A stretch of DNA of 38,836 nt from NCBI GenBank assembly GCA_030156625.1, contig JASGMC010000009.1, positions 1-38,836 on the forward strand. The letters run 5' to 3'. Below are positions 7,539 to 21,449 of this stretch, in pieces (the stretch's first letter is position 1; each line of letters begins with the position of its first letter). Source of the DNA: Methanoculleus sp. Its GTDB lineage: Archaea > Halobacteriota > Methanomicrobia > Methanomicrobiales > Methanoculleaceae. The notes under the pieces were generated by a model, which ran no database searches, was not told where the DNA came from, and saw only the letters and a list, made by a program, of their open reading frames with translations. Position numbers and translations under genes: made by a program.

Positions 7539-7683
7539 AGTGTTCAAGTTACGCCGTCAATCGGCCCTGCGGAAGAGGCTATGTATCGTGCGGTGTCACC
7601 CCCGCAAGTTAAACAGATAGCGAAATACAAAAGGGGATAAAGCCCACAGTAGCTCTTGTTTCACCAAACAGGACAAAATTAGA

Positions 7684-7732
7684 GTGGGCCCGATGCGATT
7701 CGAACGCACGACCTCCCGGTTATCAGCCGGGT
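7684..7732. repeat. Left attachment site: displaced 3' fragment of tRNA-Ile
   Basis: Reads in minus orientation from the anticodon stem (ACCCGGCTGATAACC) to the acceptor end and matches 21327-21375 at 47 of 49 positions. The two changes fall in the T arm (T-loop TTCGAAT versus TTCAAAT). It has no 5' half, so it is not a functional tRNA. Confidence 0.9.
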
Positions 7733-7753
7733 TTTCCGACGAGGAAACCCCGG
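7727..7753. other. Inverted repeat at the island edge
   Basis: CCGGGTTTTCC and GGAAACCCCGG form an 11-bp stem with one mismatch around the loop GACGA, beginning inside the att repeat and reaching into the island. It could be a recombinase arm site or a terminator; only the symmetry is seen. Confidence 0.45.
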
Positions 7754-7841
7754 GGAATGGCAAACGGGGCGATATTTACGGGGATTTGATACATCGCTTC
7801 TTTCGCGAACCTCACCTTCTGCTAACCCGCATTTGATATGC

Positions 7842-8009
7842 TTACCCCAAGCGGATATAATCCCTATGAGATGCTGAATGCCCTTTTCCCGCTCTCCATT
7901 GTGATGTACGCCAACATCTCATCGCCGTTGGGGAAACTTTCACCAGTACCCACACCTGCACCACGAGTGCCGTGAGCGCACCGACCATCAGCGTATCAAA
8001 AACCGCCAT
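7842..8009 (-). CDS. Possible small membrane protein
   Basis: A 55-codon frame opens MAVFDTLMVGALTALVVQVW, a single hydrophobic helix at residues about 5-25, followed by a basic, Trp/Arg-rich tail. It is too short to be judged by codon use and has no clear ribosome binding site or TATA box. Small one-helix proteins are common in archaeal viruses and plasmids, which is the only contextual support. The rest of 7754-8069 shows nothing recognisable. Confidence 0.25.
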   Translation of the reverse strand: MAVFDTLMVGALTALVVQVWVLVKVSPTAMRCWRTSQWRAGKGHSASHRDYIRLG

Positions 8010-8069
8010 AGCAAACGGATAGCGCCGCTACTGCCCTATTAGCCACGCTTGGACAATATAAACGCACAC

Positions 8070-8306
8070 TTAATGATTAGGATTAGAAATGTCTTCAAGA
8101 ACTTCTCTAATTATATCGGATTTTAATTTTATCAGCTCTTTTTGATTTTCACGTTCTTCTTCCAAGGTTTTTGCTCGCATCAATTGACCTATTAATGCCT
8201 GATTTAAGTTTGGATATTCCCCGCTCTCAACCTTTCCTTCCAGCCACCTGTATAATACATTTGGAATTCGCCCAGATATCGGAGAAGCACCAGATCGTTC
8301 AGTCAT
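8070..8306 (-). CDS. Small ribbon-helix-helix-like DNA-binding protein with coiled coil
   Basis: 78 residues from the ATG at 8306. Residues 10-45 (SGRIPNVLYRWLEGKVESG, then YPNLNQALIGQLMRAK) fit a ribbon-helix-helix fold: a short strand, a helix, a turn and a second helix. Residues 46-75 are a charged helix or coiled coil (LEEERENQKELIKLKSDII). The start is supported by a minus-strand TATA-like element at 8337-8348, about 30 nt upstream. It is divergent from the zinc-ribbon gene at 8405, and the shared promoter holds three evenly spaced heptamers, plausible operators for this protein (inference). The gene is AT-rich relative to the chromosome and probably regulates the element. I do not recognise a named family. 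Confidence 0.6.
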   Translation of the reverse strand: MTERSGASPISGRIPNVLYRWLEGKVESGEYPNLNQALIGQLMRAKTLEEERENQKELIKLKSDIIREVLEDISNPNH

Positions 8307-8336
8307 TGAGTTAAAAAATATCGTGCCGTAAGTCTG

Positions 8337-8393
8337 TTTAATATATGTATGCCGGGTCAATCATATGGCATACGTTTTATACCCATGTATGCC
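8337..8393. promoter_or_regulatory. Divergent promoters with three 20-bp-phased operator heptamers
   Basis: GTATGCC occurs at 8347-8353 and 8387-8393, with its inverse GGCATAC at 8367-8373. The centres are exactly 20 bp apart, about two helical turns. The plus-strand TATA box TTTTATACC (8374-8382) lies between the second and third copies, 23 nt before the ATG at 8405. The minus-strand TATA-like sequence (8337-8348) abuts the first copy. Both genes would be nearly leaderless and both promoters would be covered by a protein bound to the heptamers. Confidence 0.6.
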
Positions 8394-8404
8394 AATACAT
8401 TTAC

Positions 8405-8680
8405 ATGGAATATAACACACGGGATACGGTGATCGCTCGTCTACCTCTCCATCTCTGGAGATGGCTTAAAAGAGTGACGTGCGATGACGAACATTCAAAT
8501 CGGGATAATCACAGGGGTATCGATAGCATGAAAGCTGCTATCTGTTCCCGATGCGGTGCGGATGGCATCAAGATTGGGATTACTTCGCTGCCTGACAGTG
8601 ACGAAGCCTACGAGCAGTACTTCTGCCTGAAGTGCGGGCATGGATTCATGCTTCGGAAAAGGAAGGAGTTTGATTCATAG
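8405..8680 (+). CDS. RHH-like N-terminus plus zinc-ribbon protein
   Basis: 91 residues from the ATG at 8405, chosen because the TATA box ends 23 nt upstream. Residues 8-24 (TVIARLPLHLWRWLKR) resemble the start of the ribbon-helix-helix protein encoded divergently. Residues 47-83 form a zinc ribbon with two CxxC knuckles (CSRCGADG and CLKCGHGF) about 25 residues apart, like the zinc ribbons of TFIIS/RPA12-type proteins and many archaeal viral regulators. An internal ATG at 8528 would make a 50-residue protein of the ribbon alone; the poor linker between the halves makes a degenerate fusion possible. A nucleic-acid-binding role is likely, the exact function unknown. Confidence 0.5.
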   Translation: MEYNTRDTVIARLPLHLWRWLKRVTCDDEHSNRDNHRGIDSMKAAICSRCGADGIKIGITSLPDSDEAYEQYFCLKCGHGFMLRKRKEFDS

Positions 8681-9080: not shown

Positions 9081-11852
9081 CTACTCAAACTGGGCTTGCT
9101 CAAACCTCAGGACGTTGCTGTTTTCCTTCACAATCCGTTGCAGGGCTTCGTCAAACTCGTCATCGGTTTCAGCATCGATATCGATCCGGATCCGCACCCT
9201 TACATGCGGCTTTGTCGTGAAGTGCTGAACCACCTCGTCAACGAGATCCGAGAAGGCAACCTTTGCATTTACTGGATCAAGCTCCTTCTTGCCGTAGAAT
9301 CGCTTCTTCTTCAGAGGTGGCAGATGCTCCTCTTTTTCCTCCCGCTCTCTTTCCTCTCGTTCCTCCTCTTGCTCTCCCTCAAGATCCTTCTGCAATTGTT
9401 TCTGATACTCCGCAGCGGCCGCGGGCTCGATCAGCAACAGAGAACTATCAAGGATGATCTGAGAACGTCCCCATCCAAAAGTGAAATCGAGGTACTTCCC
9501 CGATTCCTCCCCTGCCGCAGTACCGAAGTACTCGCGGCTCCCGGCACCTGAAACGATGGCCTCCTTAAACACAGACTCATCTTTCAGCCGGGGGAGGTAG
9601 AGATAGAAGCAAGTCTTATGCCAGACCTCCTGTGCGACCGCCTCCGGGATGCCCTCTCTCCAGAACCAGGTCTTCAGCAACGTCTTGAGATGGACGGGCG
9701 CCCACCTTTCAATAATCACTTCGTTCTCCCGCAGAATGCGTTCGATCTCCTGGCTGAACTGCTGTGCTGACGGGTTGATCTGATACCGCTCCCAAGCGAT
9801 ATCCTGCGATGGCCTCCCGTTGGTCAGCTCCTGCCCCGGGACGAGCAGCCAGCGGTACGCCTCACGCACAACGCGCTGAAATATGTTTTTCGCGTTCACC
9901 ATCTGCTCTCTGGCGTTCTCCCCCATGATATTGTCAAGGATTATCCGCCGGGCTTCGTAATCCTTAACGATAGATTCCCAGGCACACCAGATGCGAGCTT
10001 GATCAGAGAGGCGATCGATGGTATCGGCATCGGCTGCAAGGAAGATTAGACGGTTCTGTTTCTGCCGCGGCTGTTCTCCCCGGTTCTTGAGGTACTCGGC
10101 CGCCCACCATTCTGCGGACTTCAACTGATGACGGCCGTAAGCGGCATCCGGTGGGAGCACCACAAACCGCATTCCCCAGTCATCCGGGATATCGGAGCTC
10201 GGTGTGAAGATATGAATACCGGCAAAGAGCCCGGGCCGTACAATGCGGGCAAGCTCGTTGCGGATCCTCGGCAGGATCTCCTCCCGCTCATTGAAGCGGC
10301 GTTTGCGCTCCTCCATCTCACGCCGGAGGTTCGGCCGAGTATCAAACCAGTACCGTTCATTTCCGATGTTCAGATGGTGGAGGCGATCGGAGAGGCGTGA
10401 AAGGGCGTCAGTGAAAACTCCGATCTGCTGAGAAGGCTGGATACTGCCAAGGAGGATCCGCTCCCGCTCAATACCCCGCGTCACCCGGTCCGATATGTTG
10501 GGCGCACTCCCGAGGAAGATGGTGCGCGCCACCCGGCGGCAGGCCTGCACGGCGCCGAATCGAGTATCACGGTTCTCGATCTCGGTCGTTTCCGCCCGAT
10601 CGCCGTCGATATCGCGCTCAACAACCGGGTCCCAGCCTTGTGGGAGGTAGTAGATCATCTCGTTTCGGGTATCGCCATCGTAGAGCGGGAGGTTGCCGGG
10701 CATGATCAGTAGATCATTATTGTTGCTCTCCCAGAGGCGGTAGATCGCTTTTGCCATCAGCTTGAGCACGCCCCGAGTGCGCTGGAAGTTCTCAAGGGAG
10801 GCCCAGTCTTCGTAGAGGCGATCAAAGAGCTCGGGATGGATGGGGTAGGCAGCGACGAGGCGTTGATAGTACCGGCTCTCCTGAGTTTCATGCGGGAACT
10901 GACCGGAGTTGTCGAGATAGGTCTCGGCGAAGGCGCGGCAGACAGCATCACGTGCAACCGGATCTGCGATACTTGAGAAGAGCCGCCGACGAACGATCTC
11001 AAACGCCTCTTCGGTGGCGACGGGCTTCCAGAGCGCCTGCACCCGGCCGAAGTAGTGTTCCAGCGCCCTGAGCACCTGTGCGCCGCGCTCTCCGCCGGCC
11101 TCGATCGCAGACTCAGGGAGTGATGCAAGGAGGACGGCGTTCGGCACCGCCTTGATTGCCTCTGTCAGCGCCTGGACAAACGAGAGGTTGACGTCGTATG
11201 TGCCGCCGGCATAGCTCTTCCCTTCCTCAAACTGCCGGATATAGGCGACCAGTTCATCGATCAGAATGACGCAGGGGGCGTGGGCGGCAAGGAGGCGGGC
11301 AAGTACGTCTTTCCCGGGCGAAGTGCCGGAAGTGTCCGCCTCCCGGACCTGTGCGTATGCAACGTCACCGCCGAGCTGCCAAGCAAGCTCTCCCCAGAGG
11401 GTGCGGACCTCGACGCTGCCACGGCGCTGGGGAATGTGGGGTGCAAGTTTGGTGCCGTCGAGGACGACGATTCGGGCTTTCGGCGGATCGAGCACTCCCG
11501 CGGCATCGAGGATCGGCGGGATGCCAGGCAGCTCGCTTGCGGGCACCGCCCCTTTCGCGAGATGGTAGACCGCGAGCAGGGTATGAGTCTTGCCGCCACC
11601 AAATGCCGTCTGGAGCTGGATGACCGGATCCCCGCCCCGGCCAGAGATGCGCTGCACTACCGATTCAAGCAGGATGCGCATTCCCTCAGTGATGTAGGTC
11701 CGGGCATAGAAGAGCGCGGGGTCACAATATTCAGGGGTGGCGGTACCGTCATGGACGCGCGAGAGGTCAGCAGCAAATTCAGCCTGCTGAAAGGTGCCCT
11801 GCAGCACGTCTTCATGGGGGATGGCGACTTCGCGCCAGGGTTTCAAGGTCAT
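9081..11852 (-). CDS. hmaC: DUF499 AAA-type ATPase of Hma-like defence operon
   Basis: Large ATPase, 923 residues, third gene of the helicase-methylase-ATPase operon. Walker A is FGGGKTH near residues 84-90, and Walker B CVILIDE at about 194-200 is followed by [16 protein letters not shown]. The N-terminus [17 protein letters not shown] and the [13 protein letters not shown] pattern are hallmarks of DUF499 proteins found with DUF1156 methylases in anti-phage loci. The C-terminal 190 residues carry a strongly acidic and basic segment ([14 protein letters not shown], residues about 810-830) before a final alpha/beta unit. The likely role is NTP-driven loading or remodelling on DNA (inference). 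The ATG at 11852 has GGAG nine bases upstream and follows the methylase stop by 36 nt. The symbol follows PADLOC Hma naming, from memory. Confidence 0.85.
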
Positions 11853-11888: not shown

Positions 11889-14795
11889 TCAACTCCACTG
11901 ATCGATCCTTCGTTGCGGCCCTTCTCCCCGCCGGTCGGTTGCGGCAGTCTCGATCGGGTGCCAGGTGGTGATCAGCTCGTTATAGGTCCGGGCATCATCA
12001 GCCCAGCCTTTCCGATCGCAGAGGGTGTAGAGGCGGTAGGCGAGCTGACGGATCTGCTGGGAGCGGGCGGGCATCTTTGCGAGGAGTTCACCGGCAGGGA
12101 CCTCCCCGCCGCTCTGGAAGGTTCTGCTCAGATGGTGGAGCGCCTCCCAGACGGGGATCCGGGGATCGGTCTCCAGATCCCAGGTGTTTGGGTATTCGCT
12201 GGCGCGGAGAAGCCGGACCTTGCCGCCGCCAGATGCAAGGACGCCAGCGGAGGTTACGCCGTCAACGGAGGTTCCTTTTGCACGGGCGAGCGTATCAGCG
12301 GTTCCAAATGGCCCTTCCTTCCAGCCGTACTCCTCAAACCACTGGATGCAGAACCGAGTGTCGGGATCGAGGTCACCCTCAGCCTTCGCGAGGTGCTCGT
12401 CGAGAGCCCTGTTGATCAGGATCAGGGCGTCATGGACGGAGAGAGGGGTGCCGTCTGCCTCCAGCACCGCTGGATACCGAGAGTAGACAGCCATACCGGG
12501 ACCGATTGAGGCCTGCGCCAGATCCACAGGCGCGATCGGGGTAGCTCCTTCCTTACCACCAGTCATCTCTTCCAACGCCTCTGGGAGCTCGGCCTTCAGC
12601 GCACGGATGAACTCTGTGCGGGAGATGGGGGCGGCATCTGGGTCGCGCTTGCGGCAGACAAGGACAATGGAGGAGGCAAGGGCATTTGTACCCATACCAA
12701 TTATTCGATATTCCTGTTCGCTTCTCATCGGCCATGTTCCGGTGACTGTGAAACCTGCCTTCAGCACCGCTTCGAGGAATGCCTCCCAACCACGCGAGGT
12801 GGTAACAGCATTCTTCGTTTCTGACTGCTTGAAGGCATAGTAAATTGTTACCGGGAAGGCAGGATGTGCCTGTGCCGCGAGCCGGCGCATCGCCTCAGTC
12901 ATGCCGTCAATAAAGAATTTTTCTGCCATGACTTTTGATCCATGACGGTGGGGTAACGCCACGAGCTCTTCCGCCTTCGGGACAGCCATTGTGGCAAAAA
13001 GTGAGGGACAGCTAGCCTTCAGGGAGCGGCGGAGCCAGACGTAGAAGAAGTCAGAGAGATCGGAATAGCCAATGTTGTCATAGTAGGGGGGATCTGTCGA
13101 GATAATTTTATTAAAGGCAATGTCGTTTTGCGAAGCGTTCCGCATTAATGCTTGTCCTGCGGCGTTATTTGAAAGATATTGTAGACAGTCCATTTGATAG
13201 TTTATATGAGTGATAAACCCACCAACAACGTTCTCGAGAATATTAGCCTCGCCAAAATCCCAAACCATAGGTATTGCTTGACGACTAAAAAGATTCATTA
13301 TTTTTTCATTTCCTGGAACCCATCTTGTGCAGATATTGTTGAAGTCGGCAGCGCGATCTACAGCGAACGCCAGATACATCGCCACCGCATCCGAATACGC
13401 CGTCGCTCCGTCACCGTCAGCCTCCAGTCCCCGGCCATCATCAGGCATCCCAGCAGCAAGTGCATCTGCCTTCACCCGATCGCGTGCCTCACCGATAAGA
13501 TCTGAGAAGGAATTGAGAGCGACGAGCTGGCGAGGAGTGAAGAGAGTCCCCCATTCGTTAAAACCATAGGAATAGCAAGTACCGCCGCTTAACCGCTCCG
13601 GCACAGCGCCAGAGGGGGTCCATGTTGGCCGCGCCTTTCTTGCTATATTCTCCATTTCTGATGTAGGTGAGAGGTAGACGCGACCCCGTCTCCCTTCTGC
13701 GACAATTGCCATCATACGGACTCCCATCCTGCCCGCCTGGCCTTCAGATTTGATATATTTTCCATCTATAGGACTTTCAGAGAAGATGCACCTGAAAGTA
13801 GCCCCTTTTTTACCAGCCTTTGTGCCTAAGCCAACCCTATTAGTATTTGAGGGCGTTCCTATCCGGACATTAAACCGATAGGCATTATTCTCCCTCACCG
13901 GCTCAATGTAGGCTTCTTTGCCCTCTTTATTTGAGAGCCAGAAACTGGAAACAAGCGGCACCTCCACATCCACATACGCGGGATTCGGGCTCTTCACAGT
14001 CCGCGCCCAGAGCCATGCGATCACGGTCAACTCTTCCCCGACATACTTCCGGAGATCCGGCCTTTCAGCCGCCATCTCCTCAGTGATCCGCACCTTCGGG
14101 TAGAGGTGCCCGATTCGTCTCTCTGCCTCATCCCGCATCCACTGTCCGTAGTGCCGGACATCCTCAGCAAGCCCGGTAGCCCCCTGCCATGCATCAAGCC
14201 GCCCCTGCTCGCGGGCCTTTGGATGCCCCGGCGGTCTTCCCGCAAACTTCGGCGGGATCTCGATCATCGCCTTATTGATCAGCACCGCCACCGGATTCAA
14301 ATCGGACGCACATGCTTCAAGCCCTAGCCGTTGCGCCTCCAGCGGGATAGCACCGCCGCCGGCGAAGGGATCATGAAATGCCGGGAGTTTTTCCGGGTTG
14401 AAGAACTCTGCAGCCTGAGGGTGGTTCCTATTCAAGTAGCAGGTCTCCTGCCAGCTCTTCTGGATCTCCGCACGGGCCTGAGCGAGCAGGGTCTCATTGT
14501 CGGTGTTCTTCCACTTTACGAGCTCGCGTATGATCGCAAAGAGTCGCTCCCGCTCGGCCTCCGCCTTCTCCCGGCTCATCCCGCGACCGAGATGCCGCTC
14601 GTAGCCGGGGTCGTTGACGAGCTGCGCAAAGAGCACCGCCCGGGCCGCTGCAAGCGGGCGGCGCGCCCACCAGAGGTGCAGACCGCGAGGGTGGGCACCA
14701 ATCCCGGGCATTTTCTCATATGCACAGGCAGCGCTAATATCCACCAGTGGCAGCGCCACTTCAATCAGTTTTTTTGGGGTTTTGATCGTGGTCAT
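11889..14795 (-). CDS. hmaB: DUF1156 DNA methyltransferase of Hma-like defence operon
   Basis: Adenine- or cytosine-N-methylating DNA methyltransferase, 968 residues. The DUF1156 N-terminus is residues 10-62 ([35 protein letters not shown]). SAM motif I is [17 protein letters not shown] at about 142-158, with acidic partner SDLNPVAV. The catalytic motif DPPYYDN lies at about 566-572 followed by [14 protein letters not shown]. The order motif I then DPPY and the large insert between them fit DUF1156 proteins. It would mark self DNA so the partner helicase and ATPase spare the host (inference from the Hma and BREX/DISARM analogy). The start overlaps the helicase stop (ATGA, 14792-14795), so the two are coupled. 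No separate specificity subunit is visible; recognition must lie in this protein or its partners. Confidence 0.88.
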
Positions 14796-17700
14796 AGTAT
14801 TCTTCCTTGTGATGCATTCAGCTCCGCCCGGGCGAGCAGCGCGGAGAGATCGAGGTTCTTACTCACCTCCGCCCAGTCAGGTTCTTGTGAGAAGGGCTTC
14901 CTGACATAGAACGGGCCTTCATAGTGACCGCCATCAACAATCACAATGGCGAGCACAAACTTCTCGCCCTGATTCAGGGCGTAGAGGATCTCGTTTCTGG
15001 AGACGGTGATTGTCGTCTGGCCCTTCGCCCGGCCCTTCACCTCGATATGCCGCTCTTCGGCGATACTGTCGTCCGAACGGTACCGGATTGACGTAAGATC
15101 CCACCCGCAATTCTCAGCTGAGACATCGACAACCCGGCAACCCCGGCGCTCTTCTGCCTCTCTCACGGCCCGCATCGCCACCGCCTCAATATGGGCCCGT
15201 GCTGCCGCATCGACCGAGGTGACTGCCACCTCCCTTTGCTCAGAAAGCATCCCGGCAGGAATGATGATCGCCGCCCCGACGATCTTCGGAGTTGCCGGGA
15301 CGACGTGGCGCATCGCCTCAAGCTCTTCTGTCCGGGCCTTCAGCCGCTCATTCAGCTCATCGATCGTCCGGCGGACGTTCTCAAGCGTGAGCCGGACATC
15401 TTTGCCAGCGGCGATATCGTCTTTCAGCTTCACGTACCGGTCCGACCAGTAGTTGATCTCCTGCACCAGCCGTTCGCGAACCGCTGCAAGGGTCTTATCG
15501 ACTTCACGCACCCGGCGCTCCCGTACCTCTGTGAAATGGTCCGGGACCAGCCGTTCAGAGGCATAGGCGAGCGTCCGGCGTTCAAGGCCCTCCGTGATCC
15601 AGGGTGCCGAGAGGAACTCCTGCACTTCTGCAGCCGCACTGGGATCGATCGGCTTAAGGTCGAGGTGGGGTGCATACCCGGCATGGGCGGCCTGCCCTGC
15701 CTCATCAAGCGTGACAAACTGCAGCCGGCGCGAGATCACCCGATCTGGCCTACCGCCCTCCAGCACCGCATGATCGATGATCAGCAGTACTTTCGGCGCC
15801 GTGGAGGTATCCGCCGGATCGACAAAGACCGCACCCCGGGTGAGCGTGGGGCGGTACGCTTCCAGAATGAGATCTACCACCGCCTGCATCAACGGATGAC
15901 CGGGATGGATCAGGCTCGCCACCGGCGCTCCCATCCGATCAAGTAGCCGGACATACTGCTTCTCAAAGCAGATCCGCTCATACCGCTTCAGGACGGGATT
16001 GATGTTCCGGCGCTCTCTTCCGCTGATCTGGCGGTCCCGTTCCCTGATCATCGCCGGGACATGGGGGATTTCCCACCGCCCCTCCTCTCGCTGGCGCAAC
16101 TCACCACCAAGAAGGCCAAATGCCTTCGTAAAAAACGACCGGATAAAGTAAGGCTGGAGTTTCCGGGCCTCGGCCTTCTCCATCTCCTCCTTCACGGCAA
16201 AGAGTCGTTCTTCCGTCATGATCTCCTTGCAGAGGGCGTCTCTCTCGATGATAGCCATCAGGTGCGAGGTATCTAACGCGACATCGACGGTCCTGAACAG
16301 TCGCGCGCGGACCTCGGGATCATCTCCATACCGGATCGCCTCGATCAAGAGATCGCGCAGGGACTTCTCCTCAAAGACTCTCCCAAGGATGTCGAATACT
16401 CTGCCCCCAAGCGCCTGCCGCTCGTTCTCCAGCTTCTGAAAGAGCCGCAGGAAAACGTCACCCTCCCGGGTTTCGGACGCCACCATATTCCAGAGATGGC
16501 AGACCTCAGTCTGCCCGATGCGGTGGATCCGGCCGAACCGCTGCTCAAGTCGGTTGGGGTTCCAAGGTAGATCGTAGTTCACCATCAGGTTGGCGTTCTG
16601 CAGGTTGACACCCTCACCCGCGGCATCCGTCGCCACCAGCACCCGGGCATATGGATCATTGCGGAAGATCTCCTGCACCTTTCGCCGCTCCTCACGCCGG
16701 ATGCCGCCGTGAATGGTGACAACTGCCTCCTCCGAACCGAGCAGACTCCGGATCCGCTTGATCAGGTAGTTGAGGGTATCGCGGTACTCGGTGAAGATGA
16801 TCAGTTTCCGCTGCCGCCCCTGAGCATCTCGCATCTCCGGCGTTTCCTGCAGGAGTCTTGATAACTCGTCCCATTTGCGGTCCTCGATGGACAAGACGAC
16901 CTGCCGGGCCTGCTCTTCGAGGCGCTGCAGGGTCCGCACCTCACCCTCAAGTTCCGCGATAGTCCAGGAGGCGGTCGCCTGATCGACCACCTTCTGTTCT
17001 GCCTCTTCGTACTCTTCGGCAGTCAGCTCGTCTTCGTTATCCCAGCCCACCGGCTGAAGAGCCTCTTCTCGGAGGGTATCGGCAAGGCTCCTGCCTCTCA
17101 GGGCGAGTCTCTCCTCTTCGATCCGGCGCTGAAGCCTAGTGCGCCGCCTCTTGAGCGACTGGTAGATCGCCTCCGGGCTGGAGGCAAGGCGGCGCTGGAG
17201 TGAGGTTAGCGCAAAACCGACCCTCCCCTTCCGTGCACCGTCCAGAATGCGATCGGCCTTATTCATCTCCTCTCGGACATACTGTGTCACCGCTTCGTAG
17301 AGGATAGTCTCCTGATCAGAGAGCCGGTACGTAACAGTACTCGCCCGCCGTTCCGGGAAGAGCGGCGTGCCAGCGAAGGTGACAAGTTCTTCCTTGACCA
17401 TCCGGCGCATCAGGTCCGAGACATCCACCTGATGAGCGCCATCGCGGTACCTGCCATAGAACCTGTCTGAGTCGAGGAGTGAGAGAAAGAGCTGAAAGTC
17501 TTCTTCCTTGCCGTTGTGCGGGGTTGCCGTCATGAGGAGGAAGTGCCGGGTATGTGAGCCGAGCAGTCTGCCGAGCTTAAACCGGAGTGTCTCTGAACGT
17601 TTCGACCCGAAATACGTGGCCGACATTTTGTGAGCCTCGTCAACCACTACGAGATCCCACCGGACATGCCTCAGTTTCTCCTGGAGCTCCTCGTTGCGGG

Positions 17701-18328
17701 AGAGCTGGTCAAGCCGGGCGATCAGGAGAGGATGCTCCTCGAAGGGATTACCGCTGCGTGACTGCTGATCGAGCTCGCGGGAGAAGATTGTAAAGTCAAG
17801 ACCGAACTTCTCATACAACTCGTCCTGCCACTGCTCGACCAAGCCACCCGGTGCGACGATCAGGATCCGCTGCGCGTCTGCCCGCATCAGGAGTTCGCGG
17901 ATGAAGAGCCCAGCCATGATCGTCTTGCCAGCGCCGGGATCGTCGGCGAGCACATAGCGGAGCGGAAGGCGGGGAAGCATGGACTCGTACACAGCACTAA
18001 TCTGATGTGGCAGGGGTTCGATGGTGGAAGTGTGGACCGCCATCATCGGATCAAAGAGATAGGCGAGATCGATCCGGTAGGCTTCAGCCGCCAGTTTATA
18101 GTCCTCGGCATTCGCATCAAAGGACCACGGCCGACCAGCTTCTACAAATGAGAGGGTCTGCTCCTCGGTCCGGTAGACCAGTCGCTCTCTCAACTGGCCG
18201 GTCTCGGTTTTGTAGATCAGCGTAATGGCATGATCGCCGACGCGCTCGGCTCTCACCACCCGTACGGGCTTATTGGATTCAATCCCACTGATGAGGGTGT
18301 CTTCTCTAATATCTTCCAGTCTGAGCAT
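14792..18328 (-). CDS. hmaA: SNF2/RapA-type helicase with DUF3883 domain, Hma-like
   Basis: Superfamily 2 DNA translocase, 1178 residues, first gene of the defence operon. Walker A DDPGAGKT (129-136), DEAH box VVVDEAHK (230-233), motif [15 protein letters not shown], and motifs [23 protein letters not shown] near 585-605 show an intact motor of the SNF2/RapA group. The C-terminal 100 residues are a DUF3883 domain with [11 protein letters not shown] then TITVSRNE, related to the PD-(D/E)XK fold; EVKG supplies the E-x-K pair, so nuclease activity is possible but unproven. The ATG at 18328 has AGGAG eight bases upstream. The 402-nt region separating it from the divergent Mrr gene holds the operon promoter. 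Helicases of this class probably scan unmodified foreign DNA (inference). Confidence 0.88.
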
Positions 18329-18730: not shown

Positions 18731-19726
18731 ATGAGAGTTCCTGAAGGGTCTAGGGTTATCGATGCGGATAATATGTCTCTCGACGAATGGTTGGACTTAC
18801 TTGCCTCAGAAAAGAATGAAAATATCTTGTTCGTTGACTATATGTTTCCAAACGATACCTGCCGTGACTCCTATTTGGAAACAGTATGCGACCGTGAAGA
18901 AAATGAGGTTAAGTGGCTACTCCGTAAATTTTTAATCCCGTCTGGTTCGTTCAGTAAGGACGAGATCACTCTTTCTTCGTTAATCGATCACATAAAACAG
19001 AACCCAGATAAGGCGGATAAAATAAAAAATCTTGAGTTTTTCAGGAGACTTGTTATTTCTGCATCACAAAAAGGAGAGGGAAGAATACAACCATGGGAGG
19101 GCATTACCTGGGCTCTCGATCTCCTTCCGAATTACCCAAGATACGCGATAAATGCTCTTGAAGCATATTTTGCTGCGCATGTAATGTTTTTACCTGATGG
19201 GAGGATAACAGGATTATCCGATGCTATTGCAATAATTAGGGCGAAGTTTATCCAAAGCGCTTCACCAGAAGAAATATTCTCGAAATTTAGCTCACGAGAG
19301 TTTGAACATCTTGTTGAATCCCTATATCATGCAATGGGCTACCAAACGATACTCACAAAAGAGGTACGTGATGGGGGGAGAGATATTATCGCAAGACAAA
19401 CAGAATTAGGTAAACGTGAAACAGCGTTAATCGAGTGTAAAAACTGGAGGAAAGTGGTTGGGGTAGACCGTGTACGCTCTCTGTTAGGTGTGGTTACAGA
19501 TGAAAAGGCATCCCGAGGAGTTGTTGTAACTTCATCACGATTTACTAAACCTGCCAAAGAGTTTGCGCAAGGAAATAAAAGCCTTGAACTCATCGATGGG
19601 GATCTACTGAAAGTAATGCTGAATGAACACTGCGGAACTAACTGGTCTATCCATGCAAACTATTTGATAATGGAAAGTATAAAGCGGCAGACCAAGCCAG
19701 AGGGATCAACAAAGTACTCCGACTGA
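18731..19726 (+). CDS. Mrr-family restriction endonuclease-like protein
   Basis: 331 residues. The C-terminal half (about 195-300) is an Mrr-cat domain of the PD-(D/E)XK nuclease superfamily: SREFEHLVESLYHAMGY, then GGRDIIA with Asp218 and ALIECKNW with Glu235 and Lys237, then GVVVTSSRFTKPAKEFA. All catalytic positions are present, so cleavage activity is likely. The N-terminal 190 residues are all-helical (DEWLDLLASEKNENILFVDY; WEGITWALDLLPNYPRYAIN) and may sense damage or partner proteins; I do not recognise them. Mrr proteins of this type cut modified or foreign DNA. It is transcribed away from the Hma operon and is markedly AT-rich, consistent with transfer or with a separate acquisition. 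It may be an accessory nuclease of the same system or a stand-alone defence gene. Confidence 0.85.
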   Translation: MRVPEGSRVIDADNMSLDEWLDLLASEKNENILFVDYMFPNDTCRDSYLETVCDREENEVKWLLRKFLIPSGSFSKDEITLSSLIDHIKQNPDKADKIKNLEFFRRLVISASQKGEGRIQPWEGITWALDLLPNYPRYAINALEAYFAAHVMFLPDGRITGLSDAIAIIRAKFIQSASPEEIFSKFSSREFEHLVESLYHAMGYQTILTKEVRDGGRDIIARQTELGKRETALIECKNWRKVVGVDRVRSLLGVVTDEKASRGVVVTSSRFTKPAKEFAQGNKSLELIDGDLLKVMLNEHCGTNWSIHANYLIMESIKRQTKPEGSTKYSD

Positions 19727-20239: not shown

Positions 20240-20815
20240 TCAGTTGGTGGAGATGGCCGGGTCATCATCGCCATTGTTTGACTGCGATATTCCAGATGCT
20301 GGGTTCTTATCCTGCTGAGATTGGTTTTGTTGGTTCAATTCGTTAAGGACTTTATCTATCAACTTTGCCTGACGAATGTGTTCTTGCTTCAGTTCAACGA
20401 GGGTTTTTTTCATAAATACTACTTGCCTGAGAGTTGATTGTGCGTCCCGATTAGCCTGACAAACATATTTTTGAAGGTCCATAACCTTCGAGTCCATGTT
20501 GATGTGCTTTTGATCACTGTTCGTATCTTTAACAGTACTGCCTGCAATAGCAAACAGAGCAAAAATCAGACTAAAAACAGTATATACTTCAATCGTTTTT
20601 TCAGGGTCTTGAGTCAGCGGAATAATAGCGAGTATTAACTGTAATATTACAATCACTATGAGTGTTGCAGTCCAGATTTGAAATTTCCCCCATAATCCTA
20701 CTTTCTGGTAATTTCCAATTAATTGTGCAATCAAGATTGCAATTAAAACCACTGCAAATGGATAAACAAGTGGCGACACTGACAGGATCATAGACAGGAA
20801 CGGAATAGAGATCAT
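20240..20815 (-). CDS. Three-helix membrane protein with cytosolic coiled coil
   Basis: 191 residues, unknown family. Three hydrophobic helices at about 12-36, 44-66 and 76-92 are followed by a long soluble tail (95-191) with heptad-like helix LRQVVFMKKTLVELKQEHIR and a Gln/Asn/Asp-rich end (NELNQQNQSQQDKN). The start is ambiguous: the ATG at 20815 and the ATG at 20791 both sit at the same place in two tandem 24-bp repeats, so the N-terminus MISIPFLS may be an added copy. No clear ribosome binding site is seen. It is AT-rich and lies alone near the right end of the island. Membrane proteins with coiled-coil tails are frequent effectors in defence loci, but no such role is shown here. Confidence 0.65.
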   Translation of the reverse strand: MISIPFLSMILSVSPLVYPFAVVLIAILIAQLIGNYQKVGLWGKFQIWTATLIVIVILQLILAIIPLTQDPEKTIEVYTVFSLIFALFAIAGSTVKDTNSDQKHINMDSKVMDLQKYVCQANRDAQSTLRQVVFMKKTLVELKQEHIRQAKLIDKVLNELNQQNQSQQDKNPASGISQSNNGDDDPAISTN

Positions 20816-20834: not shown

Positions 20835-20963
20835 TACTAGGAGAATAAGCCTTCCTGTTTGCTCTCCTTCCCCCTTTTTCGACGAATGCGCGACTCCTGC
20901 TCCCCCCTTCCGTGTTGCCCTCTCATGTACGACCCCTCCCCGCAAATTTTGCCCCTCCGAAAC

Positions 20964-21110
20964 TGTCCGGACACTTTCGGCTATCCGAAACCATGACCGC
21001 GCGCGGCCCATTTACAGCCCCCATTTTGGTTACCACCTCTTTAAGACCCCCCGCACAGAGCATTAGGTAACCCGAAAGTGTCCGGACACATCCGGACATG
21101 TCCGGACACT
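20964..21110. promoter_or_regulatory. Operator-like TGTCCGGACA palindromes upstream of an RHH gene
   Basis: TCCGGACA occurs at 21081, 21091 and 21101, exactly 10 bp apart, inside a nearly symmetric 32-bp block (21079-21110) that includes the perfect palindrome GTGTCCGGACAC. A further copy lies at 20964-20980, and the 17-bp CCGAAAGTGTCCGGACA at 21072-21088 is its perfect inverse. The block ends 27 nt before the RHH start codon. One-turn spacing is typical of cooperative ribbon-helix-helix repressor sites; an iteron-type origin is the other possibility. Confidence 0.65.
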
Positions 21111-21137
21111 AGAATAGAAACGCAGAGAGAGGAGAAA

Positions 21138-21449
21138 ATGGCGAAAAACAAAAAACCCAAGCGAATTAGAGAACGGTTACACGTTACGCTTGATCCGGAG
21201 GTCTACAAACTGATAGAAGATAGCGGCGTTAACGCCTCCCGATTGATAGATAAAGCCGTCACCGCGTTGTTTTCCCGCGTTGACCACGTTTCTATCCTCG
21301 TTTCATCGAAAGAGGCTCAAAAAGAAGTGGGCCCGATGCGATTTGAACGCATGACCTCCCGGTTATCAGCCGGGTGCACCACCAGCTATGCTACGGGCCC
21401 TCATACACTCATATTAGTGCCTATAAATGTTGTACAATCTTCGATTTAA
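21138..21449 (+). CDS. Ribbon-helix-helix protein reading into the tRNA att site
   Basis: 103 residues from the ATG at 21138, which has GGAG four bases upstream. Residues 1-50 are a clear RHH domain: a basic arm MAKNKKPKRIRER, strand LHVTLDPEVYKLIEDS, then NASRLIDKAVTALFS. From residue 64 the frame is simply the antisense of tRNA-Ile and runs to a stop at 21447-21449 beyond it, so the last 40 residues are imposed by the integration site. In an excised circle the frame would instead pass through the att repeat and continue for 34 codons from 7732 to a stop at 7834-7836 (inference). The upstream phased palindromes suggest autorepression. It probably controls island maintenance or excision; no family name can be given. 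Confidence 0.65.
   Translation: MAKNKKPKRIRERLHVTLDPEVYKLIEDSGVNASRLIDKAVTALFSRVDHVSILVSSKEAQKEVGPMRFERMTSRLSAGCTTSYATGPHTLILVPINVVQSSI
21327..21375. repeat. Right attachment site within tRNA-Ile
   Basis: 49-bp direct repeat of 7684-7732 with two mismatches, covering the tRNA from the anticodon arm to the discriminator base plus one flanking base. It marks the right boundary of the island. Confidence 0.9.
21328..21400 (-). tRNA. tRNA-Ile (anticodon GAU)
   Basis: 73 nt on the minus strand. Acceptor GGGCCCG pairs with CGGGCCC, discriminator A; D stem GCAU/GUGC; anticodon stem CCCGG/CCGGG with loop CUGAUAA (GAU); T stem AUGCG/CGCAU with loop UUCAAAU. CCA is not encoded. This is the intact copy restored by island integration. 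Confidence 0.96.
21421..21428 (-). promoter_or_regulatory. TATA box of tRNA-Ile
   Basis: Minus-strand CATTTATAG lies 21-29 nt before the tRNA 5' end, the canonical archaeal spacing. Confidence 0.65.

Follow-up and report, generated by a model that had tools for sequence, protein, structure and literature searches.

What is the small ribbon-helix-helix (RHH) gene that runs into the antisense of a tRNA-Ile gene at one end of an att-flanked island of about 13.6 kb in a methane-making archaeon? The gene lies in a 38,836-nucleotide stretch of Methanoculleus sp. DNA (assembly GCA_030156625.1, contig JASGMC010000009.1), here called the window. The original prediction took it for a regulator gene that contains attP and has its C-terminus swapped by integration. 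We present here evidence that this open reading frame (ORF) is very probably int(N), the 5′ half of a suicidal (class I, SSV-type, PF16795) tyrosine-integrase gene split by integration. The att sites and the empty site are seen for the window itself and the layout of such a gene is seen in relatives, from which the split in the window is inferred.

RHH gene and att sites

The gene, its upstream region, and the two att copies comprise the following features (no strand is given for repeats and att copies).

21138–21449, + strand: RHH ORF, start codon ATG at 21138, stop at 21447–21449, 103 amino acids
21138–21326, + strand: int(N) domain, CcdA-like RHH, residues 1–63 (profile matches and AF2 model)
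21327–21449, + strand: ORF tail; residues 64–88 are antisense of tRNA-Ile, residues 89–103 are chromosomal flank
21327–21400, − strand: tRNA-Ile (gat) (ARAGORN)
21326–21375: right att copy, from the element as far as the crossover
7683–7732: left att copy, native tRNA-Ile 3′ half in displaced position, identical, flank included, to the empty site in L005
7733–7836, + strand: 34-codon extension and stop in the excised circle, at the site of int(C) in relatives; of chance length, without similarity to int(C)
21079–21108: predicted operator, three contiguous 10-bp near-palindromes, TGTCCGGACA CATCCGGACA TGTCCGGACA (repeat analysis)
21037–21048, + strand: TATA-like sequence, CTCTTTAAGACC, picked out by eye and putative; a similar stretch lies upstream of many relatives
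20957–20980: further TGTCCGGACA palindrome in the spacer between the RHH gene and a divergent gene (repeat analysis)

A strong Shine-Dalgarno (SD) sequence (AGGAG, 21130–21134) lies upstream of the ORF. An RHH fold is suggested by weak profile matches: the ORF core matches Pfam RHH_3 at an E value of 0.0031, CcdA is matched by 9 of 20 homologues of the core (best E value, 1.6e-5), and a profile comparison gives the CcdA structure 2adl at 0.013. The AF2 model of the core, of medium confidence (mean pLDDT, 68), contains helices only, at residues 20–28 and 33–45, and gave no significant match in Foldseek. ARAGORN places the 3′ end of tRNA-Ile exactly at the start of codon 64, which confirms the prediction that from this codon on the ORF is the antisense of the tRNA.

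The two att copies are identical at 48 of 50 positions. In L005, a Methanoculleus isolate record that shares aquaporin (Aqp) and IorA proteins at 100% identity with the flanks of the island, the tRNA-Ile gene is uninterrupted, and its 3′ flank and 3′-half sequence are those of the left copy; the right copy differs from this empty site at 21344 and 21352. The left copy is therefore native, and the right copy arrived with the element. By this sequence comparison the att junction is real, with the crossover within 21353–21375, around the anticodon. The 3′ half of the window tRNA-Ile is element-derived, and residues 64–103 of the ORF were acquired through integration. The att site lies inside the coding frame of the RHH gene, which integration interrupts at the tRNA, so that the att copies and the empty site support the prediction of an attP within a gene whose C-terminus is exchanged. 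A weak match at 7655–7683 was considered as a relic of an older int(N) at the left att and dropped, because in L005 these bases belong to the native flank of tRNA-Ile. In the relatives L013, L046, L049, L050, L052, and L134, degenerate additional copies of the 3′ half are visible by eye just beside the tRNA-Ile gene and are likely scars of earlier insertions at the same site.

When the ends are joined in silico, with 7683–7732 as the second att copy, the RHH frame stays open across the repeat and then for 34 codons to a stop at 7834, as predicted. The caution that came with that prediction, that such a run is not rare by chance, was well founded: at least 34 open codons follow 50.5% of 76,472 start points in the window and 125 of 470 start points within 7733–8069. 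Compared with nine int(C) starts, the extension (FSDEETPGNGKRGDIYGD...) shows no significant similarity, with 103 to 489 of 500 shuffles scoring equally well, and conservation of the circular extension thus fails for the window. A reading of the tail as a linker stub of int(C) was dropped on the same nine comparisons. Because the run is ordinary in the window and lacks int(C) similarity, the predicted protein with two forms, of 103 and 113 residues, is a description of an element that was damaged or rebuilt.

The array at 21079–21108 forms 13 of 15 pairs (P = 0.002 against shuffles; scored as L089) and ends 29 nt before the RHH start codon. Similar arrays were detected at P ≤ 0.01 at 14 of 51 loci, versus 1 of 47 control regions further upstream; the other 37 of the 51 loci missed this threshold, and two of the three array units are visible by eye at other loci. 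Operator-like arrays, TATA-like sequences, and SD sequences are retained upstream of many int(N) copies.

RHH homologues at tRNA genes

Searched with the complete ORF, 61 genomes gave mostly tRNA antisense, and several matches consisted of the RHH core followed by a different tRNA. The genomes were therefore surveyed with the RHH part only, using a profile (A1) of 20 RHH cores, which matched in 37 of 61 genomes. To count distinct loci, broken pieces were merged, matches sharing the same 70-nt stretch of the core were taken as one, and the six weakest matches (G025:C31, G057:C1:680416, G001:C1:602952, G031:C69, G029:C1, and G036:C27) were left out. With this profile, whose seeds were found with a query including the tRNA tail and so are nearly all tRNA-adjacent, 53 of 61 distinct RHH loci are located no more than 200 nt upstream of a tRNA 3′ end; the tRNA is antisense in all 53. 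Thirteen tRNA types are represented: Val (three anticodons), Met, Thr (three), Asn, Ala (two), Arg, Ile, and Lys. Among the other eight loci, L138 is fused to an integrase and the second copy in L075 lies at a displaced att copy. A control with the ordinary RHH family PF01402 found a tRNA at 0 of 30 loci (match plus about 1.5 kb on each side). A wider search of the phylum found an antisense tRNA within about 50 nt at 11 of 15 loci read, a same-sense tRNA at L229, L230, and the stronger L235 match, and no tRNA at L228.

These counts bear on the simplest alternative, that the gene is an ordinary CcdA antitoxin-like or CopG regulator adjoining a tRNA by chance. CcdA and RHH_3 are indeed its closest profile families, and it shares with CcdA/CopG-type repressors the repeated palindromic sites upstream. 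It differs from them in that no co-directional toxin partner follows 3′ of the ORF, where tRNA-Ile and chromosome come next, and in that the N-half is joined via attP to an integrase in relatives. Given an arrangement common to most homologous loci and absent from the control, we give a chance overlap practically no credence.

Intact RHH frames remain open through the first 45 nt of the tRNA antisense in 33 of 39 cases, versus 23.0 expected (SD, 2.9). Most intact homologues thus do not end before residue 64, an outcome that would have counted against the original prediction, and the excess of open frames fits an origin within a longer protein. Stops occur in several int(N) copies. The int(N) copies at L102 (tRNA-Val cac) and L114 (tRNA-Val gac) are 88% identical, which indicates that the target can change while the N-half stays. 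The genome of the window holds a second int(N) of the same family (L112; G000:C32:845–1030), which runs into tRNA-Val(cac).

Relatives with both integrase halves

L138 is an unsplit RHH-integrase ORF of 425 to 434 amino acids, in the order RHH, degenerate tRNA-antisense-like stretch, and PF16795 integrase (1.5e-21). When 150 Methanomicrobiales genomes were searched with the integrase portion of L138, 18 contained relatives, and at most loci read the integrase ORF starts in a tRNA-antisense peptide. Of 16 extended stretches examined, 11 elements had both att copies. All 11, spanning 2.5 to 17.7 kb, have the order displaced att, int(C), cargo, N-half, and tRNA.

Joining the ends in silico gave a single frame across att in 7 of the 11 elements. 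Five of these are RHH-integrase frames, in G133 (505 aa), G102 (388 aa), G074 (495 aa), G041 (501 aa), and G056 (483 aa), and two, in G059 (411 aa) and G037 (407 aa), carry another N-domain. The joined halves are out of frame in G046 and G142, the G033 element is a relic, and that of G060 is decayed. With another N-domain in G059 and G037 and none recognised in G142, the RHH is not universal. A homologous N-half in frame with PF16795, the mark of an SSV-type integrase, is thus present in relatives, whose native full-length product is about 390 to 505 residues.

The original prediction of a stand-alone regulator, with native forms of 103 and 113 residues, attP in the regulator gene, and no integrase half, has in its favour that the far side of att in the window island holds no integrase and that the joined frame does give 113 residues. 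Against it stand the same-frame integrase beyond att in those seven elements and a 34-codon tail that matches nothing and has a length expected by chance. We regard the stand-alone regulator as quite improbable; the likeness to archaeal viruses with attP in the integrase gene, which had also been suggested, came closer to the truth.

Of the 37 genomes with RHH matches, 30 have int(N) without a PF16795 match and seven have both. Either int(N) is under selection, or the end at the tRNA is simply the part of a decaying element that disappears last.

Sister integrases L167-L168 (G059), L171-L172 (G037), and L149 (G101) have a different N-domain before att, AbrB-like by eye; two of these that were tested had no Pfam match. 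N-domains seem to have been exchanged in front of att among sister integrases.

The G074, G041, and G133 elements (L176, L179, and L165), 16 to 18 kb long and with both integrase halves, are provirus-like. The G074 element encodes RecT (1.2e-21) and an ATPase that matches a packaging entry of PHROGs (1.3e-18), and proteins of 320 to 330 amino acids without a family in G074 and G041 may be capsid proteins. The elements of G056 (L125, 3532–6147) and G060 (L178), in turn, have about 2.5 to 2.6 kb between the att copies, with little besides the two integrase halves. Among viral contigs, none of four queries (the window ORF, L138, L143, and A3, an alignment of int(C)) picked up a relative; two records from the phage collection and two from the plasmid collection matched, in the integrase part only.

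Cargo of the window island

The island carries the following further genes.

9081–11852, − strand: HmaC AAA+ ATPase (PADLOC HmaC, 1438.1 bits)
11889–14795, − strand: HmaB DNA methylase (PADLOC HmaB, 1577.1 bits)
14792–18328, − strand: HmaA helicase (PADLOC HmaA, 1973.7 bits)
18731–19726, + strand: Mrr-type restriction endonuclease (Pfam Mrr_cat, 8.2e-33)
20240–20815, − strand: divergent gene, predicted by eye to encode a membrane/coiled-coil protein

HmaA, HmaB, and HmaC occur together at high score, which identifies an Hma defence system as defined in PADLOC; what sets it apart here is that it is carried as cargo between att copies, on an island that ends in int(N). HmaC matches in seven other relatives are not near any listed int(N) match, and there is no general linkage of HmaC to int(N). 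The divergent gene has a weak homologue, G009:C8:10437–10775 (24% identity; E value, 3.1e-7), likewise divergent to an int(N), and the RHH gene and the divergent gene are possibly a conserved two-gene module. Two small genes at 8070–8680, of no recognised family, lie directly after the left att, at the position of int(C) in relatives.

PF16795 has no match anywhere in the genome of the window, so that the catalytic half seen in relatives is absent from the other att of this element. All PF00589 matches in this genome are on other contigs and none is in the island; a comparison of int(C) proteins with the window gave nothing convincing. A decayed int(C) in the island was dropped as a candidate, since matches up to an E value of 10 were at chance level. 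With no int(C) detectable, the island is called a derivative that has only the int(N)/att end, and not a complete member of the family; it has lost int(C) or never had one. Most likely it descends from an element, possibly viral, that carried an integrase and, while gaining the Hma cargo, lost its int(C) end or had it replaced. Excision would need an integrase supplied in trans. PMC8371274 reports that SSV2 and TKV4 are excised in this way by a complete integrase, and it is possible that a related full-length integrase could mobilise the window island.

Relation to known integrases

The SSV-type suicidal integrases of pT26-2, pTN3, and SSV, as covered by PMC8371274 and PMC6972569, share with the relatives of the window element an attP inside the integrase gene, a tRNA target, the int(N)/int(C) split, and the PF16795 catalytic half. 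They differ from the present family, in which the N-half in Methanomicrobiales relatives is a CcdA-like RHH with an upstream palindrome array, and the window element itself lacks int(C). The free plasmids pT26-2 (GU056179) and pGE2 (NZ_MN477947) have the same layout of a CcdA/RHH-like N-terminus, a tRNA-antisense-like linker, and PF16795; their integrase N-termini match CcdA weakly (E values, 0.026 and 0.013, respectively), and profile A1 likewise (0.022 and 0.016). They differ in being Thermococcales plasmids, and by tblastn they are matched only by the integrase part of L138.

As far as the literature on suicidal and archaeal integrases was searched, no description of an RHH N-half was found. 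The available text of PMC8371274 contains neither RHH nor ribbon-helix-helix, that of PMC6972569 neither RHH nor ribbon, and those of PMC12934983 and PMC9608457 mention RHH proteins apart from integrases. The suicidal integrase is a known kind; within the scope of this search, the RHH N-half, the operator array, and their spread in Methanomicrobiales relatives are new. The idea that int(N) is expressed has precedent: PMC8371274 reports that in S. solfataricus P2 only the int(N) of two integrated elements is transcribed and that the T. nautili int(N) is preceded by the integrase promoter. What would be new is a repressor domain at this position.

Proposed role of int(N)

In the circle formed by an element of this kind, a single gene encodes an N-terminal RHH domain, attP as the antisense of the tRNA 3′ half, and the catalytic domain. 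Recombination of attP with the tRNA gene splits it: the regenerated tRNA keeps the promoter, the predicted operator, the start codon, and the RHH domain beside it, and int(C) comes to sit at the far end behind the displaced tRNA fragment. The RHH domain would dimerise and bind the array of 10-bp repeats, serving the full-length enzyme for arm-type DNA binding and for dimerisation. Left by itself once integration has occurred, it would repress its own promoter and that of incoming relatives. We propose tentatively, as a possibility that we hold to be rather doubtful, that after integration the former integrase gene encodes a repressor of itself: int(N), still expressed from the original promoter, would bind the triple 10-bp array, shut that promoter, and block the full-length integrase of incoming relatives at the same operator.

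The N-domain may instead act only in DNA binding and dimerisation, with int(N) left as an inert remnant beside an essential tRNA, an account to which we give about even odds. PMC8371274 assigns control of multimerisation to the N-terminal part of the SSV integrase and terms the halves pseudogenes, and the stops in several int(N) copies point the same way. The regulatory sequences kept before many int(N) copies, and the genomes that hold int(N) with no PF16795 match, argue against an inert remnant; so does a pairwise dN/dS below 1 in all finite pairs (0.14 to 0.78), a value that does not separate selection before integration from selection after it.

The identification of int(N) accounts for a class of small ORFs in methanogens that terminate in tRNA antisense, and it makes int(N) a marker for past insertions at tRNA genes, here that of a defence island. 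PMC8371274 calls paradoxical the archaeal retention of integrases that destroy their own gene. If the repressor proposal is true, int(N) would be retained for repression in genomes that lost int(C), and islands like the Hma cluster would ride on int(N) as integrase-less passengers. A DNA-binding N-half that stays with its promoter and operator would give a simple switch for directionality and immunity.
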